Origin: Halioglobus sp.
GTDB lineage: Bacteria; Pseudomonadota; Gammaproteobacteria; Pseudomonadales; Halieaceae
Assembly: GCA_002699145.1 (NCBI GenBank)
Contig: PABK01000059.1
Coordinates: forward strand, 1-43,924
DNA: 43,924 nt
Reading direction: 5' to 3'
Shown in pieces: positions 16,451 to 43,924 of this stretch. Position 1 is the stretch's first letter. Each line of letters opens with the position of its first letter. The notes under the pieces were generated by a model. The model was given only the letters and a program-made list of their open reading frames with translations. It did not search any database and was not told where the DNA came from. The position numbers and the translations under genes were made by a program.

Positions 16451-18743
16451 ATGCCACAAGACGACGATTATTCTACCGATGATATCCTGCCACAGAGCGA
16501 GCGCCTCCAGGCGCTCTCTCCGGAGGAGTACGAACTGCTTTGGGGGCATCCGGTCTTCTCAGATTCTGACCGGGCCTTGTTCTTCCAGCTCAATGCCCGT
16601 GAGCAGGAGTACTTCGGTCAGCTGCGAACACCCAAAACCCGAGCCAATTTCCTGCTCCAGCTCGGTTACTTCAGGGCGCGACAGCGATTCTTCGTCCTGA
16701 CGCCCGCTTTGGTCGCTGACGACCTGGCTTACCGCAGAGAGAAATACCTCGAGGGTAAGCCGGTCCCCAATCTAAAGATGTCCAAGGTGGTGTGCCAGCG
16801 CCAATTGGCCTGGATTCTCGATCACTTCGGGTTCGAGTGCATGTCCTCACAGCACCGGGATACCCTGGAGAGCAGGGCATTGGATACGGTACGGATATCC
16901 GGTCGTCCGTTGTATGTCATGCGTGATCAGGGCAACCAAACTAACCCCGGAAAGCGTGCGCTTCTACGCCTCGCTTGTGGACTACTACACGGTGTACAAA
17001 CTGAAGAGAATGGCCGAATCGAGTAGTCGCTTATATGTGCTGTGCTTTATCCACGACCGATACCGCCGGTTGTACGATCATCTGCTCAATGCACACTGTG
17101 CACTGATCCGTCGCTACAGCGAGGAGGTGAAAGAAGCTACTCGGGAGGCCATTCTGGAACAGCGCCAGCAAGTTTCCAGTGATATGGACCGGGGTATCGA
17201 GATCCTGCAGATGTTTCTCGATTCGGACATCGACGACGCGGTGACCTTTGGCAGTATCAGGCGTATGGCCTTCAAAAAGCTGCCAAAGGCTCGCCTTGAG
17301 CGGCTCTGCGATTACCTGGCTGAAGATGGCGCCATTGATGACCGCGTACTGGAGTGGCAGGCGGTCGATAGTATTATGCCTAAGGTGAAACGGAATCTCC
17401 GTCCGCTGCTCCGTTTCTTGGACCTATCGGGCACACGCTCCCAGGCCACGCTGGTATCAGAGCTCAATAAGATGGCAGATTCCTTCCGTCGGGGAGTGCA
17501 CATGCCCGACAACATGCCGCTATCGATCGTCCCAGAGCGTTATCGGCGCCACCTAATCCAGAGCGATGGTACGCTCAACCGCAATCGCTATGAATACTTC
17601 CTCTATCGGCAATTTAGAGATCGCCTTGAAGCGGGTGACATCTTCTGCGCTGAAAGCACGCGATACCGAAGCCTGGAAGATGACCTTGTGGACCGCGAGG
17701 TGCTGGAGAACAAAGAGGTCTTGCTGCCAAATTTGGGATTGGTCGAGGCCAGTTCGCCAGTCCGAGATCAGCTAGACAATCTGAAAGAGGAACTGGCGGC
17801 GCGCTATAAGGCGGTGAATGAGCGCATCAAGGGCGGAGCCAATCCTTATGTTCATCTGCGTAACGGTCGACTCGCCTGGTCCAGGAGTCTGGAGGCGGAT
17901 GAGCCAGCCGAGCACGAACCCCTTTTCGATGTGGCTGAGCGGATCGATATCGACCAATTACTGCTTCATATCGATCGGCGGACGCATTTCTTGTCTTCCT
18001 TTGAACATGTGATGGGGCGGTACCAGCGGGGGAGGGCTAATAAGCCCCTTCTCGTTGCAGGCCTGATGGCGTTCGCCACTAAAATGGGCCTTGGGCGCAT
18101 GTCTGAGATATCTAACTTCACGCGGGACCAGCTAAGTACGGCAGCGGCTAACTTCACAAGGCTGGAGACGCTCCGGGAAGCGAATGACCGACTGGCGGAT
18201 GCCACTGCCAAGCTGCCGATCTTCCGGTACTTCGACATCGGTGACACCGTGCATTCCTCCAGTGACGGCCAGAAGTTTGAGACGGAGGTGCCCACGGTAA
18301 ACTCTCGCCACTCAGCCAAGTACTTCGGGCTAAAAAAGGGGGTTATTGCGTACACGCTGCTGGCCAGCCACGTACCCCTCAGCGCACGCATCATTGGCGC
18401 TAATGAGCACGAGAGCCACTATGTGTTCTATGTCCTGTTCAACAATACGTCTGATGCCCAGCCAAGCACTCACTCGACGGATACGCATGGCTCAAACCAG
18501 GTGAACTTCGCGCTGCTGCATTTCTTCGGCTACCGCTTTGCGCCGCGGTACCGCGATTTCAGGCACAAGATTGATACTGGACTGTATGGATTCGATAATC
18601 CCCGAACAGCCGCGGGGCCGTTGAAACCCATCCGGAAGATCAAGGAAGATCTCATCTGTGACAGGGGCGGCCGCCACCCGTTTTGTCTTGCTCTTAGTAA
18701 GCCGCACAAGTATGAGGTCAGTTCCGGAATGCTGCTGCTTTAG
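16451..18743 (+). pseudogene. tnpA: Second Tn3-family transposase, frameshifted and C-terminally truncated
   Basis: The N-terminal part (16451 to about 16935) reads a typical TnpA start (LSPEEYELLWGHPVFSDSDR). The frame then breaks near 16935 and continues in another frame from KLTPESVRFYASLVDYYTV to 18743. Catalytic Asp blocks are present: SSDGQKFE and STDTHGSNQVNFALLHFF. The final Glu block and about 200 residues are missing: after KPIRKIKEDLICD the sequence departs from the family. The TAG stop overlaps the stop codon of the TonB receptor. The protein is therefore dead by two lesions. No inverted repeat comparable to the 2725 element is seen near 15960-16450. It marks an old transposon boundary joined to the iron island. 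Confidence 0.88.
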
Positions 18744-37565: not shown

Positions 37566-38072
37566 ATGGCTAGCTACAAAAGACGGCGGCGAGAGACTTT
37601 GAACAGACCTTTCCCAAAGAAAATGGTTTTAATATGGCTTTTGATGACGGCTATTTCACTTGGTTTTTTGATCACTCTGCAGATTTTTGAGATCGATATT
37701 GATGAAGCAGACATGGTGGTCTATCAATCAAAAAAATGTAGCTGTGTAAATGAATGGATTGCGCAGCTAAAGAGTGAGGGCTACTCTGTTGCAGTTAAGA
37801 AACCCATGTTTGTCAGTGTTATCAGGAAAAAGAACGATATACCAAAGGAGTTTTCCTCATGCCATACCACCATTGCTGGGCAGTACTTTATTGAAGGGCA
37901 TGTACCTATGAGAAGTGTTAATTTCCTTTTGGACACCCAGCCTAATGTCGCGGGTATAGCACCTCTGGGCGAGATGGAAGGAGAATATTCTAATATGACC
38001 GAAATGAAGACTTCTAAAGAAGTTGTAGCTTTTAGTGATGATGGACGATACAGCATATTTGAGCAGGAATAA
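37566..38072 (+). CDS. DUF411-like membrane-anchored protein with CxC motif
   Basis: The 168-aa protein has one N-terminal hydrophobic segment (MVLIWLLMTAISLGFLITLQIF, about residues 20-41) and a soluble domain beginning MVVYQSKKCSCVNEWIAQLKSEGY. It resembles DUF411 (metal-binding, often copper, VYKSPTCGCC...WxxHLKxxGF). Here CGCC is reduced to CSC. The conserved SCHTxxxxxYxxEGHVP is kept (FSSCHTTIAGQYFIEGHVP), while the GMPxGSPxM loop is degenerate (APLGEMEGEYSNMTEM). It is thus a divergent member that may bind a metal through C-x-C, His and Cys. The operon partner is the CBS protein upstream. Confidence 0.7.
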   Translation: MASYKRRRRETLNRPFPKKMVLIWLLMTAISLGFLITLQIFEIDIDEADMVVYQSKKCSCVNEWIAQLKSEGYSVAVKKPMFVSVIRKKNDIPKEFSSCHTTIAGQYFIEGHVPMRSVNFLLDTQPNVAGIAPLGEMEGEYSNMTEMKTSKEVVAFSDDGRYSIFEQE

Positions 38073-38083
38073 GCGTCCGCACA

Positions 38084-38109
38084 TTGCTGTGATTCGAGAG
38101 TCACAGCAA
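38084..38109 (+). terminator. Perfect 9-bp stem hairpin after DUF411-like gene
   Basis: The arms TTGCTGTGA (38084-38092) and TCACAGCAA (38101-38109) are separated by 8 bases, 12 bases after the stop codon. No T-run follows, so it may be a 3' mRNA hairpin, or a CRP-like dyad with non-standard N8 spacing. Nothing else is recognised in 38110-38287. Confidence 0.4.
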
Positions 38110-38308
38110 CAAATGGACCAAGGCCTTGGCGGCTCTTCTCACTGTGTGCTTCACCACATATGTTCAATGAATGAAAAGGGTCGGCAGCATCGGTCAGCTC
38201 ACTGCAAGATTCCCTCGTTTTAGTAATAGATAGGGCCATTGGCAGAACGGCTAGCGTTATCTTCCATGCTCGAAAAGCGTACCGAAAATGAAAAGTGAAA
38301 TGACAACC

Positions 38309-38317
38309 AAAAAAAAA
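38309..38317 (+). other. A9 tract separating a candidate start from the ATPase frame
   Basis: Nine adenines follow ATGAAAAGTGAAATGACAACC. From ATG 38288 (or 38300) the frame runs MKSEMTTKKK and stops at 38324. One additional A would join it to IDLKLILPDVDDQ of the downstream ATPase. Confidence 0.6.
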
Positions 38318-38334
38318 TCGACCTAAAACTGATA

Positions 38335-40728
38335 TTGCCGGACGTAGACGACCAGGGGGATGCGTGTCTTGAACGTCTTCGCGACATCGTTCAAGCGAAG
38401 CGCGGTATCGAACGCTCGCACGTCGTCGAAACTGGCGATCGGCGCACAGGCGAACTGTGCGTGCACTTCGATCACGGCCTACTGTCGTTGCAGGACGTGC
38501 GTCAACTTGCGCAACAGGCAGGCCTACAACTGCAAGCATCCTACGGCCACCTGCGCACGGACATCGATCCCTTACCGGAGAGGCGGGCAAAGCAGTTCGC
38601 CCGGTCGCTACAAAATGAGGAAGGTATTCTCGAAGCGTTCGTTTCCGGAGACGGAGCAGTTCGGGTCGAATTCAATCGCGAACAAATCGACGACGACGGC
38701 GTACGCAGTCACATAGAGCGCCTGAGCGGTATCGCAGAGCATGCGGACGACGAGACGCACGCACACGGTGGCATTTTCGGCGAACGGACCGAACTGATTT
38801 TTGTTGTATTGTGTGGTGTTGCACTTTTCTTGGGTTGGCTGATGCCCAAGCTCGCGACTGTCCCCGAAGGGGTTACGTTGTCAGTACTGATTGGCGCCTA
38901 TTTCTTCGGTGGCTGGTTCACGGTCAAAGAGGCCTGGGCAAACCTCCGCTCCGGACGCTTTGAGATCGACTCACTGATGTTGGTCGCAGCCGCTGGCGCC
39001 GCTGCGCTGGGCGCCTGGGCCGAAGGCGCGCTGCTGTTGTTCTTGTTTAGCCTGGGTCACGCCCTCGAAGCCTACGCAATGGGGCGTGCCAAGCGAGCGA
39101 TCGAAGCATTGGGTGAGTTAGCGCCGCGGACCGCGACTGTTCGCCGCAACGGTTCGGTGCAAGAGGTCGAGGTCGAAAGCCTGCGTATTGGAGACGTCGT
39201 CCTGGTCAAGCCGAATGCGCGCTTACCGGCTGACGGATTTGTCAGCCTTGGCGAGAGCAGCGTGAACCAGGCGCCGATTACCGGCGAGAGCGTCCCGGTT
39301 GACAAATCGCCTGTCCCGGATGAGGCGATGGCCGCTGCGAATCCAGACCAACTTGAGGCCGCGCATCGCGTGTTTGCGGGGTCGATCAATGGTGGTGGTG
39401 CGCTGGAGATCTGCGTGATACGAGTGGCCGCCGACTCCACGCTGGCGCGTGTGGTTGAAATGGTGCGCAATGCCGAAACACAACAATCACCGACACAGCA
39501 ATTCACGGATCGATTCGAGAGAATTTTTGTCCCGGTCGTGATCGCTGGCGCAGTGCTGGCTATGTTTTCCTGGGTGGTTATCGATGAAACATTTAGTGAG
39601 AGTTTCTATCGAGCCATGGCATTGCTCGTTGCGGCAAGTCCTTGTGCACTGGCCATCGCGACTCCGAGTGCAGTGCTCAGCGGCGTCGCCCGCGCAGCGC
39701 GTGGCGGCGTATTGGTGAAAGGTGGTGCGCCACTGGAACACCTGGGTCGACTCAACGCGATTGCCTTTGACAAAACCGGCACGCTCACCGAGGGCAAGCC
39801 CAAGCTAACCGATGTTGTTCCGTACGGGCCGACCGACGAGCAACATTTACTGCGGGTTGCCATTGGCATTGAGATGCTGAGCGATCATCCCCTGGCCGCG
39901 GCCGTCGTGCGGGATGGCAAAGAGCGGCTCGGTTCAGTCGAGCCTTTTTTAGCGTCGAATCTGAAGAGCATCACAGGGCGCGGTGTAACGGCCGAGATCG
40001 AAGGCGAAACCACTTTCATCGGGAAGGATGATTTGTTCGCCGAGGTGGACGGACCACCGCTTCCGGATGGGTTACGTGAGGAGGTAGAGAACCTCGAATC
40101 GGCCGGTCGCACGACAATGATCGTGCGACATGGTGACGCCTATCTTGGCGTGATTGGGTTAATGGATACCCCGCGCGAAGCGGCAACGGCGGTGATAAAG
40201 CGTCTGCGGTCTTTAGGTATCAAACGCATGCTGATGATCTCTGGTGACAACCAGCAAGTAGCAGATGCCGTTGCGCGTGAAGTTGGACTCGATGAAGCGC
40301 GCGGTGACCTGATGCCTGACGATAAGGTCACGACCATCAAGCAACTGCGATCAGAGGCTCACGCTGCTATGGTTGGCGATGGCGTCAACGATGCACCGGC
40401 TATGGCCAATGCGACCGTGGGTATTGCGATGGGTGCCGCGGGCTCTGACGTTGCCTTGGAAACGGCAGACGTCGCACTGATGGCGGATGACCTCAATCAT
40501 TTGCCATTTGCGGTAGGCCTGAGTCGCGCGACCAGCCGAATCATTCGACAAAATCTTTGGCTAAGCCTCGGTATTGTGGCCGTCCTGGTTCCCTCGACGC
40601 TTTTCGGTTTGAGTATCGGCGCAGCGGTTCTGGTACATGAAGGTTCAACGGTCATCGTCGTATTCAATGCATTGCGGCTGCTGGCATTCAGCGATGCAGA
40701 AAATTTGAAGGGGAAAGCACGTGGATAG
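38335..40728 (+). CDS. P1B-4-type heavy-metal ATPase
   Basis: This is a large metal-exporting P-type ATPase. From TTG 38335 it has 797 residues. The frame is already open from 38299 with IDLKLILPDVDDQ, so the true N-terminus is longer; an ATG at 38288 joins only if one A is added to the A9 tract. A degenerate HMA-like N-terminal region (GDACLERLRDIVQ) lacks CxxC. A His-rich linker HADDETHAHGG follows. The catalytic DKTGT is near residue 479, the actuator TGES is present, and the hinge is GDGVNDAPAM. Helix 6 has SPC (near residue 435) and helix 8 HEGST (near residue 768): these are the P1B-4 marks, associated with Co/Zn/Fe(II) or Cd. It is in the same direction as the czc operons. Confidence 0.9.
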   Translation: MPDVDDQGDACLERLRDIVQAKRGIERSHVVETGDRRTGELCVHFDHGLLSLQDVRQLAQQAGLQLQASYGHLRTDIDPLPERRAKQFARSLQNEEGILEAFVSGDGAVRVEFNREQIDDDGVRSHIERLSGIAEHADDETHAHGGIFGERTELIFVVLCGVALFLGWLMPKLATVPEGVTLSVLIGAYFFGGWFTVKEAWANLRSGRFEIDSLMLVAAAGAAALGAWAEGALLLFLFSLGHALEAYAMGRAKRAIEALGELAPRTATVRRNGSVQEVEVESLRIGDVVLVKPNARLPADGFVSLGESSVNQAPITGESVPVDKSPVPDEAMAAANPDQLEAAHRVFAGSINGGGALEICVIRVAADSTLARVVEMVRNAETQQSPTQQFTDRFERIFVPVVIAGAVLAMFSWVVIDETFSESFYRAMALLVAASPCALAIATPSAVLSGVARAARGGVLVKGGAPLEHLGRLNAIAFDKTGTLTEGKPKLTDVVPYGPTDEQHLLRVAIGIEMLSDHPLAAAVVRDGKERLGSVEPFLASNLKSITGRGVTAEIEGETTFIGKDDLFAEVDGPPLPDGLREEVENLESAGRTTMIVRHGDAYLGVIGLMDTPREAATAVIKRLRSLGIKRMLMISGDNQQVADAVAREVGLDEARGDLMPDDKVTTIKQLRSEAHAAMVGDGVNDAPAMANATVGIAMGAAGSDVALETADVALMADDLNHLPFAVGLSRATSRIIRQNLWLSLGIVAVLVPSTLFGLSIGAAVLVHEGSTVIVVFNALRLLAFSDAENLKGKARG

Positions 40729-40870: not shown

Positions 40871-41464
40871 ATGAAGCGCATTTTTCACCGTCATCGATCG
40901 ATGCTCGTCCAGCTAGCTATAGGCGCGTTTCTTGGGGTTTTGTTACTGCACCCATTGACGATGCTGGTCTTCTATTTTGAGTTCAATGAGGAGTTGGCTG
41001 CACCTTATTCCAACGCATTGTCCTTTATGGCGAATCGGCTGCAAACCTCGACGTTTCAGGAGTTGGTTCCTATGAATGCTGTATTTGCTGTGCTTGGTGC
41101 TGGTCTCGGGGTCGTTATATTTTTTTACAATCGGATAATTGAAACGGAGCAACGACGGGCCCAATGGTTAGAGCGGGAGCTGAACGTAAACCTACCGGGT
41201 CTTATTGCGACAGGCGAGAATGAGCGCCTGGAGTTCAAGTCGACGTTGCGCTGGAATCTGCGAGAAAAACGAGCCGATAAAGCACTCGAGCAAGTTATCG
41301 TAAAATCAATTGCCGGATTGATGAATCACCGTGGGGGTAGTTTGTTAATCGGTGTTAGTGATACCGGCGATGCCGTCGGCATCAGTGCCGATTGCGAAAC
41401 ACTGAGGCACAAAAACGCGGACGGCTTTGAGCGTGCACTCATGGATATCGTGCGCAGTTGTTGA
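40871..41464 (+). CDS. Membrane-anchored AlbA_2 domain protein, truncated by IS21
   Basis: The 197-aa fragment has two membrane helices (about residues 13-33 and 67-87) followed by a cytosolic Schlafen AlbA_2-like domain (ENERLEFKSTLRWNLR, IAGLMNHRGGSLLIGVSDTGDAVGI). AlbA_2 domains are linked to nucleic-acid or nucleotide binding in many signalling and defence proteins. The frame runs into the IS21 terminal repeat at 41459 and stops at 41464, so the C-terminus (the normal GFExxLxxII.. continuation) is lost. Its function is unknown. A weak ribosome site (AAGG) precedes ATG 40871; the 40729-40870 gap holds nothing else that I recognise. Confidence 0.75.
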   Translation: MKRIFHRHRSMLVQLAIGAFLGVLLLHPLTMLVFYFEFNEELAAPYSNALSFMANRLQTSTFQELVPMNAVFAVLGAGLGVVIFFYNRIIETEQRRAQWLERELNVNLPGLIATGENERLEFKSTLRWNLREKRADKALEQVIVKSIAGLMNHRGGSLLIGVSDTGDAVGISADCETLRHKNADGFERALMDIVRSC

Positions 41465-41509
41465 TTTGCACTTAAAACTGACCCAGGATTTGCATCTAAT
41501 ATTGACCCA
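41459..41509 (+). repeat. Left terminal repeats of IS21 element
   Basis: TGTTGATTTGCAC followed by two tandem 23-bp repeats. Both hold GATTTGCA and TGACCCA, the transposase-binding pattern of IS21 ends. Confidence 0.85.
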
Positions 41510-41523
41510 CCCTGGTCGCCAGA

Positions 41524-42303
41524 TTATGGCGTAGTTTTAGGTTTCTTGCTGCCTTTTCCTCCCTCCTGATTGATCGTCGAGTGCTTTAGTCGGTAGCTGT
41601 CATTGCCTGTCTCGAGGATATGGCAGTGATGGGTCAACCGATCCAGCAGCGCTGTTGTCATCTTCTCGTCTACAAACACCGTCGACCACTCCGCGAAGCT
41701 GAGGTTGGTGGTAATGATGATGCTGGTGCGCTCGTACAGCTTGCTGATCAGATGGAACAAGAGAGCTCCACCCACCTGGCTGATAGGCAAGTAGCCCAGT
41801 TCATCCAGGATCACCAGGTCGGTGTGGATCAACCGGTTGGCCAGTCGGCCCTGCTGTCCGGCCTGCTTCTCCTGCTCCAGTGCGTTGACCAATTCGATGG
41901 TGGATAGGAACCTGACGCGCTGACGGTGGTGCTGTATAGCCTGGACAGCGATGGCAGTCGCCAGATGGGTTTTGCCAGTGCCTGGGCCTCCCACCAATAC
42001 AACGTTCTGGGCATCTTCCAGGAACTGGCACCGGTGCAGCGATTTCACCAACGCCTCATCCACCAGGCTCTGGCTAAAGTCGAAGCCGGTGAGATCCCGG
42101 TAGGCCGGGAACTTGGCTACCTTCATCTGGTAGTTGATCGAGCGCACATCCCGCTCTGAGGCTTCAGCCTTGAGCAGCATCTCCAGCACCGGGACTGCCT
42201 GTTGGTAGGCCGGCGACGACTGCGTAGAGAGCTCGCCGACAGCATCGGCCATGCCGTGCAGCTTCATTGATTTCAGGGTGGTGATCATGGCATCAGGGTT
42301 CAT
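41524..42303 (-). CDS. istB: IS21-family helper ATPase IstB
   Basis: This 259-aa AAA+ ATPase of the DnaC/IstB family helps IstA choose targets and assemble the transpososome. Walker A is [11 protein letters not shown] and Walker B is LVILDELGY. The sensor region is [13 protein letters not shown]. Its start overlaps istA by 11 bases, which suits translational coupling. The protein is of full length. Confidence 0.95.
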
Positions 42304-43819
42304 GGCGTGTCCTCCGGAGTTTGTCGTAGCGTGCGGTGTCGGCCAAGGGCTCAGTGACCAGCTTCAGCGCTGGCGGTGCCTTAAGCCGTTTGGGCCGTCT
42401 GGGTTCCTCTAGTCGGCTGAGGCAATTCAAGACGTGCTGTTTGGAGGGCTCGCCGGCTTCCAAGGCCTTAGCCACGGCTCGCTCTACCTGCTGTTCGTCG
42501 TGGAGTAATACCAGGGCGAGGATGTCGACCATCTCCCGGTCGCCACCAGGGCGCTTCAGAAGCCGTGTACGTAATTGCCGGAAGCTCTCAGGCAGTTCCA
42601 TAAACGGGGCACCGTTGCGTAAGGCGCCTGGTTTGCGTTGCGCCACCGAGAGGTAGTGGCGCCACTTGTAGATGGTTTGCCCCGGCGTGCTCTTGTCCCG
42701 ATTGAACGCACGGACATGTTCTGCGACTACCTGGGCCTCGGCAACAATCACCAGCCGCTCCGGATAGACGCGCAGACTGATCACACGGTTGGCGAAGCTG
42801 GCAGGCACACTGTACCGATTATGTTCGAAGGTGATCAGGCAGGTGGAGGAGACCCGTTTGCTGTGCTCAACAAAGCCGTCGAAGGCGGCAGGCACCTGCA
42901 TCATCTTCGATTGCTCGTCCTCCAGGCATTCGGCCAGGGAGCGGTTCTTGAGCTGAGGATGGGCAGTCTCCTGCCACAACACCTGGCAGCGTTCCTGTAG
43001 CCAGATGTTCAGCTCTTGCAGGGATTTGAACGGCGGGGTGTCGTACCAGAGGCCGTGGCGAGCATCCAGAACCGCTTTTTCAACCTGACCCTTCTCCCAG
43101 CCAGCAGCGGGATTACAGAACTCGGGCTCATACAGGTAGTGGCCGACCATGGCGTGGAAGCGCTTGTTGACCTGGCGTTGTTTGCCGCGGCCTACCTTGT
43201 CCACGGCAGTCTTCATGTTGTCGTAGATGCCCCGCTCCGGTATACCGCCGAAGGCCATGAACGCGTGGTAGTGCGCATCGAACAACATCTCGTGGGACTG
43301 GGTCAGGTAGGCCCGCATGAAGTAGGCCCGGCTGTAGCTCAGCTTGAAGTGGGCGATTTGCAGCTTGGTCCTGATGCCGTTGATCTTTACCCAATCTTCG
43401 CTCCAGTCGAACTGGAAGGCTTCTCCGGGGGCAAACTGAAGTGGCACATAGGCCTGCTTCGCCGCCTGCAACTTGGCGTCCTGCTGAGCCTGGCGCCACT
43501 GGCGGGCAAATGCCGCTACGCGATCATAAGAGCCGGTGTAGCCCAGGCCCACCAGATCTTTGTAGAGCCGCTTCACGGTACGTCGCTGTTTACGGTGTCG
43601 CCGGGATTCCCGGAACAGCCAGTTGGTTAAGGTTTCTTCGTAGCTGTCCAGTTTGCTGGGAGACTTGCGAGAGGGGTACGCCGGTTCGAGATCCTTGCTG
43701 GCAAGGTACTTGCGAACCGTGTTTCTGGACAGTCCGGTGCGGCGTGCGATCTCCCGGATCGGCATGCCATCACGTAGATGCCAGCGTCGAATTACACTTA
43801 CTAGTGCCACGTCTATCAC
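42293..43819 (-). CDS. istA: IS21-family transposase IstA
   Basis: This 508-aa DDE transposase has an N-terminal helix-turn-helix ([19 protein letters not shown]) and an rve-type core. The triad is likely the Asp in [10 protein letters not shown], the Asp in [12 protein letters not shown], and the Glu in [16 protein letters not shown] Mu-C-like tail ([25 protein letters not shown]) follows. The start is GTG 43819; another GTG at 43810 has a better-spaced GGAG. The frame is intact. Confidence 0.95.
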
Positions 43820-43863
43820 TCCTGTTACCCCTGCTCATTATTTGTGCAGGGAGGGGTTATACG

Positions 43864-43924
43864 TGGGTCAAAATTCGATGCAAATCTGGGGGGTTAGTGG
43901 GTCAATTTTCGGTGCAAATCAACA
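43864..43924 (-). repeat. Right terminal repeats of IS21 element
   Basis: Two inverted 23-bp repeats (43864-43886 and 43898-43920) plus AACA at the very end, matching the left end in reverse complement. Confidence 0.85.

Follow-up and report, generated by a model that had tools for sequence, protein, structure and literature searches.

A predicted metal-pump gene of the CzcP type is offset by one base from the reading frame of the codon that appears to be its own start, and the break falls on a run of nine adenines (the A9 tract, 38309–38317 on the plus strand) read directly from the sequence. The window, by which we mean the whole stretch of DNA analysed (43,924 bases, the entire contig), holds six homopolymer runs of at least seven bases in all, and A9 is the longest of them. 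Under a first-order Markov model, the window would be expected to hold 0.10 A runs of nine or more, and there are 14 exact A9 or T9 tracts in the 5.2-Mb genome. By either the Markov model or the genome count, the chance that such a tract would lie wholly inside the 25 nt that are open in both frames (38299–38323) is ~4–5 in 100,000. Because tract and break coincide against such a small chance, they are very probably causally linked. We consider it about an even chance that this is a slipped, leaky-OFF allele, one that would yield mostly an 8-residue peptide and, by slippage, some full-length pump, from a DNA tract that would be readily reversible.

Two Reading Frames at the Start of the Pump Gene

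Two ATG codons upstream of the tract share a frame. The first (38288–38290, plus strand) opens the reading MKSEMTTKKKST; the second, at 38300, is read through the tract as MTTKKKST, eight residues, and then TAA (38300–38326, plus strand). Their common frame is ATG AAA AGT GAA ATG ACA ACC AAA AAA AAA TCG ACC TAA, with its stop at 38324–38326. The P1B-4 (CzcP-like) heavy-metal ATPase has its open frame at 38299–40728 (plus strand); this frame begins after a TGA at 38296–38298, is one base off the frame of ATG38300, and continues for 803 codons without a stop, its catalytic motifs kept. The original prediction had put the ATG of MKSEMTTKKK out of frame with the ATPase, with nine adenines between them, and direct reading of the sequence agrees.

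Comparison with homologues was used to locate the break. The start table covers 37 homologues, which include some close pairs and are not independent; the window's own loci, and matches with alignments starting after query residue 14, were dropped. The start was taken as the nearest in-frame ATG, a rule that makes some offsets (those of L013 and L007) look short. In 20 of the 37, the nearest in-frame start (19 ATG, one GTG) stands exactly 18 nt, or six codons, upstream of the residue that aligns with Ile38317. The start is five codons before the aligned Ile in five others, seven codons before it in another five, and elsewhere or not found in seven, so that by this rule 17 of the 37 rows lack the 18-nt spacing. 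Among annotated plasmid genes, five of six start 18 nt before the Ile point and one at 15 nt. The 20 six-codon starts carry Thr2 in 11 cases, Lys4 in 14 and both in nine; the window's own sequence is MTTK. ATG38300 stands 17 nt before the Ile38317 codon, versus 18 nt in most homologues. This difference of spacing indicates that the homologous start is the second ATG, ATG38300, rather than ATG38288, which is not at the homologues' start position, and that the frame break lies inside the gene, within codons 4–6, at the A run. The earlier suggestion that tract length would decide whether start and pump are connected is likewise supported. Lying in the first codons, and with the reading frame depending on its length, the tract has the defining property of inlA-like loci with a 5′ poly(A) frame break. 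Placed between the two frames, it also has the length given for a transcriptional slippage site, an A or T run of at least nine (PMC5009743).

The tract itself is not shared. At the corresponding place in 36 homologues (L057, one of the 37, is not an N-terminal alignment, has no start and is absent from this set), the longest A run is six, found in four of the 36, and none exceeds six. A9 as a conserved device of the CzcP family is therefore not supported, and among the homologues compared the tract appears to be lineage-specific.

The Pump and Its Genomic Setting

The pump protein scores 583.2 bits against TIGR01525 (heavy-metal P-type ATPase; cut-off 346.25) and matches PF00122 and PF00702, and it has the A domain, DKTGT and GDGVND of the core. 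Three motifs were placed on the plus strand: SPC in TM4 (39637–39645), the DKTGT phosphorylation motif (39769–39783) and HEGST in TM6 (40636–40650). The first and last are the signature motifs given for PIB-4 ATPases, SPC in TM4 and HEGxT in TM6 (PMC8880997), and they support the P1B-4 call made at the outset. The stretch 38317–38721 (plus strand; query residues 1–135) matches the solved CzcP N-terminal domain (PDB 4u9r; phmmer E 3e-20), the mark of a CzcP-type N-terminal extension, and the solved chain closest to the pump, 7qbz, aligns from query residue 144 on. The gene is accordingly annotated here as a predicted CzcP-type P1B-4 metal-export ATPase (Co, Zn or Cd). Its identity to four plasmid homologues is 60%–69%. 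The pump of Cupriavidus metallidurans CH34 plasmid pMOL30 (L150) is 60% identical and has the same N-terminal extension, SPC and HEGST, but it starts MTEKLRLDIPVLLP in frame, without such an A run. We take this gene to be czcP; its record says only heavy metal translocating P-type ATPase, and the 4u9r match supports the assumption.

Five other homologues (L014, L015, L017, L025 and L067) are 63%–64% identical over the core and align only from query residue 123–134 on. The CzcP-type N-terminal domain looks to have been lost or gained as a block among the homologues.

The contig carries one IS21, two Tn3-family transposases, two cation-efflux proteins and two RND efflux sets, of which NCBIfam identifies one as CusA/CzcA, and by its predicted gene content it is a mobile metal-resistance region. 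Its G+C content is 54.4%, versus 64.7% over 400 kb sampled from the genome, so the region was probably acquired. A 16S stretch shares 85.3% identity with E. coli across 860 bases, as would be expected of a gammaproteobacterium. Loss of the pump could be cushioned by the other exporters nearby.

Several further features of the region and genome were recorded. The product of the gene upstream of the pump (37566–38072) is 168 residues long and includes part of a DUF411 domain. A Schlafen/AlbA_2-domain gene (40871–41464; profile positions 1–54 of 118) extends into the left end of the IS21 at 41459–43924 and looks to have been cut by its insertion; the genome has four identical full copies of this IS21, plus nine partial copies at contig ends. 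The Tn3-family transposase at 16914–18743, which adjoins a TonB receptor gene, matches only positions 2–232 of a 389-position DDE profile, at its C-terminal end, and looks 3′-truncated. An ArsP-like permease (2064–2768) covers half its profile (2–147 of 294) and adjoins a full Tn3 transposase. Two of the genomic A9 tracts, L126 on contig C1 and L130 on contig C21, have identical flanks and are copies of one repeat.

Predicted Slippage at the A9 Tract

If the allele is leaky-OFF, translation from ATG38300 would mostly end after eight residues. A minority of full-length pump would arise where RNA polymerase adds one A on A9 or, alternatively, where ribosomes slip −1 on A_AAA_AAA. The DNA tract would mutate back and forth at a raised rate, which would make the OFF state both leaky and readily reversible. 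Published work makes slippage at such a run credible: nine A or T are reported to give high-efficiency slippage in vivo in bacteria (PMC5009743), insertions in E. coli transcripts to rise exponentially with run length up to nine (PMC5574713), and frameshifts at A8 runs to be bypassed, giving functional protein (PMC3812077). For the ribosomal route, codon phasing places an in-frame A_AAA_AAA heptamer at 38311–38317 (plus strand), a possible −1 slip site with the form of the slippery heptamers of programmed −1 frameshifting. The intact 803-codon frame, the kept motifs and the identity to plasmid homologues suggest that the break is recent or tolerated.

How much pump might be made is a separate matter. 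Folding of 38318–38420, calculated without pseudoknots, gave no stimulatory structure downstream of the heptamer (z 0.78; 161 of 200 shuffled sequences fold as well or better), and a strong ribosomal frameshift cassette is not supported. No Shine–Dalgarno-like stretch, the other stimulator of frameshifting, was seen by eye upstream of the heptamer. Neither ATG38288 nor ATG38300 has a Shine–Dalgarno sequence (−0.1 and −0.4 kcal/mol); the energies of 12 other ATG starts in the window are −2.4 to −11.6 kcal/mol. No sigma-70-like promoter was found in 37900–38500, and E. coli RNA polymerase is reported to slip more on poly(T) than on poly(A) (PMC6260861). Taken together, the lack of structure, Shine–Dalgarno sequence and sigma-70 match and the polymerase's poly(T) preference argue against a strong output of pump.

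Three known systems offer points of comparison. Poly(A) tracts have been described as over-represented and situated towards the 5′ ends of genes, and the A6 allele of Listeria monocytogenes inlA has a stop after amino acid 8, with reversion to A7 at ~5.5e-7 (Orsi et al. 2010, PMC2831843). The present locus resembles it in the one-base poly(A) contraction in the first codons, in a zero frame that ends after eight residues and in being reversible in principle; it differs in that the A6/A7 change of inlA comes with measured polymorphism and reversion, whereas here an A9 at a metal pump was read from sequence alone. In Citrobacter rodentium tssM1, an 807-residue frame has an A11 run 28 nt ahead of its stop, and ~20% slippage was measured (PMC4256274). 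There too a poly(A) run precedes a stop and the mRNA must gain extra A's for the full-length protein to be made, but the run is late in the frame and its slippage was measured, whereas here A9 is at codons 4–6 and slippage is predicted.

A metal pump offers the third comparison. The zero frame of E. coli copA makes the pump, and frameshifting yields a small chaperone. The relation is thus the reverse of that proposed here, where a shift would be needed for the pump. Common to both is a P1B-type metal ATPase with a frameshift in its decoding, proposed here and, in copA, −1 and ribosomal (PMC9548414).

Alternative Explanations

An assembly or sequencing error, with the real tract in frame and an ordinary CzcP-like pump gene behind it, is less likely, though still a reading to be taken seriously. 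Indel errors fall in long runs and A9 is the longest in the window, while the pump frame is otherwise perfect over its 803 codons. Spurious tract indels are possible in Illumina data, although above all beyond 14 bases (PMC8808543), and contigs run across three of the four full copies of IS21, so non-short-read data or gap filling may have been used. However, nine contigs end 89–99 bases inside IS21, which suggests a read length of ~100 bases. Runs of comparable length also appear to have been assembled without damage. Among 30 runs of seven or eight in the 400-kb genome sample, 17 are well inside intact coding-like ORFs and a frame-overlap test flagged one, which separates a DsbA-like gene from a sigma-54 activator gene; the sample gave no shown gene break, the other 12 not being inspected singly. 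All five other runs in the window, each of seven, are in open ORFs. Three of the 13 other genomic A9 tracts (L134, L137 and L138) were judged by eye to lie inside ORFs, which are unbroken, and the rest by the same sorting at gene edges or by hairpin-like sequence. The original prediction had itself allowed for a sequencing error; that option is weakened by the unbroken runs of seven to nine and the apparent ~100-base reads. It is rather improbable that A9 is real and the gene a recently broken pseudogene, its pump essentially not made and its loss neutral thanks to the contig's other exporters. The two RND efflux sets and two cation-efflux (CDF) proteins nearby fit such a loss, as do a start without a Shine–Dalgarno sequence and a tract that is not conserved, but the frame shows no further lesion, without a stop in 803 codons, and nine adenines are within the range where slippage rescues frames.

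A start at an internal in-frame codon, either TTG38335 by re-initiation or GTG38461, would give a pump with a damaged or shortened N-terminal domain, and we regard this as decidedly improbable. Within its first 158 codons the pump frame has no ATG, and the only GTG or TTG codons there are TTG38335, GTG38461, TTG38488 and GTG38497; hence a full pump from ATG38300 needs a frame shift. In an ORF scan, TTG38335 (38335–38337, plus strand) is the first ATG, GTG or TTG in the pump frame and the likely pick of an ORF caller. It lies only 8 nt past the TAA, a close stop–restart geometry. Several homologues align only from query residue 123–147 on, and 7qbz from 144, so the core can exist without the N-terminal domain. 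On the other side, TTG38335 lacks a Shine–Dalgarno sequence (+0.4), that of GTG38461 is weak (−2.9), and the residues that would be lost are common to homologues. Of the in-frame TTG start considered in the original prediction, then, the codon stands, but as a start it would be without a Shine–Dalgarno sequence and would skip those first shared residues. An ORF caller that began the pump at TTG38335 would probably give it a wrong N-terminus.

A Possible Regulatory Switch

By analogy, the locus looks like a 5′ poly(A) frame break of the inlA kind, and switching at A9 is plausible. It was not filed as phase-variable, because the tract is not conserved across relatives. A selected switch, by phase variation or programmed slippage, with metal export set by tract length or slippage rate, is the least probable of the readings considered. 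In its favour, the tract occupies the 5′ end, separates the start from the pump frame and is followed directly by a zero-frame stop, and inlA and tssM1 are precedents. Against it stand the A runs of at most six in comparable homologues and the lack of stimulatory structure downstream. No second genome with DNA of the locus was found among 56 others, so the tract could not be compared between genomes. That search covered 57 genomes, with 17 of the 56 others in the genus, and the 12 that matched were the locus's own and 11 with matches of only 30–163 bases. The own genome has no second copy of the locus (one match), and no copy was found among viral contigs.

Protein searches reached further. 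At the order level (390 genomes from a larger group), two long close homologues were found, L097 (67%) and L098 (61%), both with in-frame starts; a class-level search with the N-terminal part (369 genomes) gave matches in ten, the own genome included. A literature search found no phase-variable metal ATPase; it required several terms together and is weak evidence of absence.

It is very doubtful, though conceivable, that slippage on the 5′ A9 sets pump output in a metal-fluctuating habitat. The default would then be leaky-OFF: polymerase or ribosome slippage would supply a basal level of pump, and heritable high or null expression would come from changes in the DNA tract.

If A9 is real, the locus would be a clear example of a metal pump that is intact but joined to its own start by slippage alone. 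It would offer a simple test of the functional cost of losing one base from a 5′ poly(A) run, and would test whether metal stress selects tract length.
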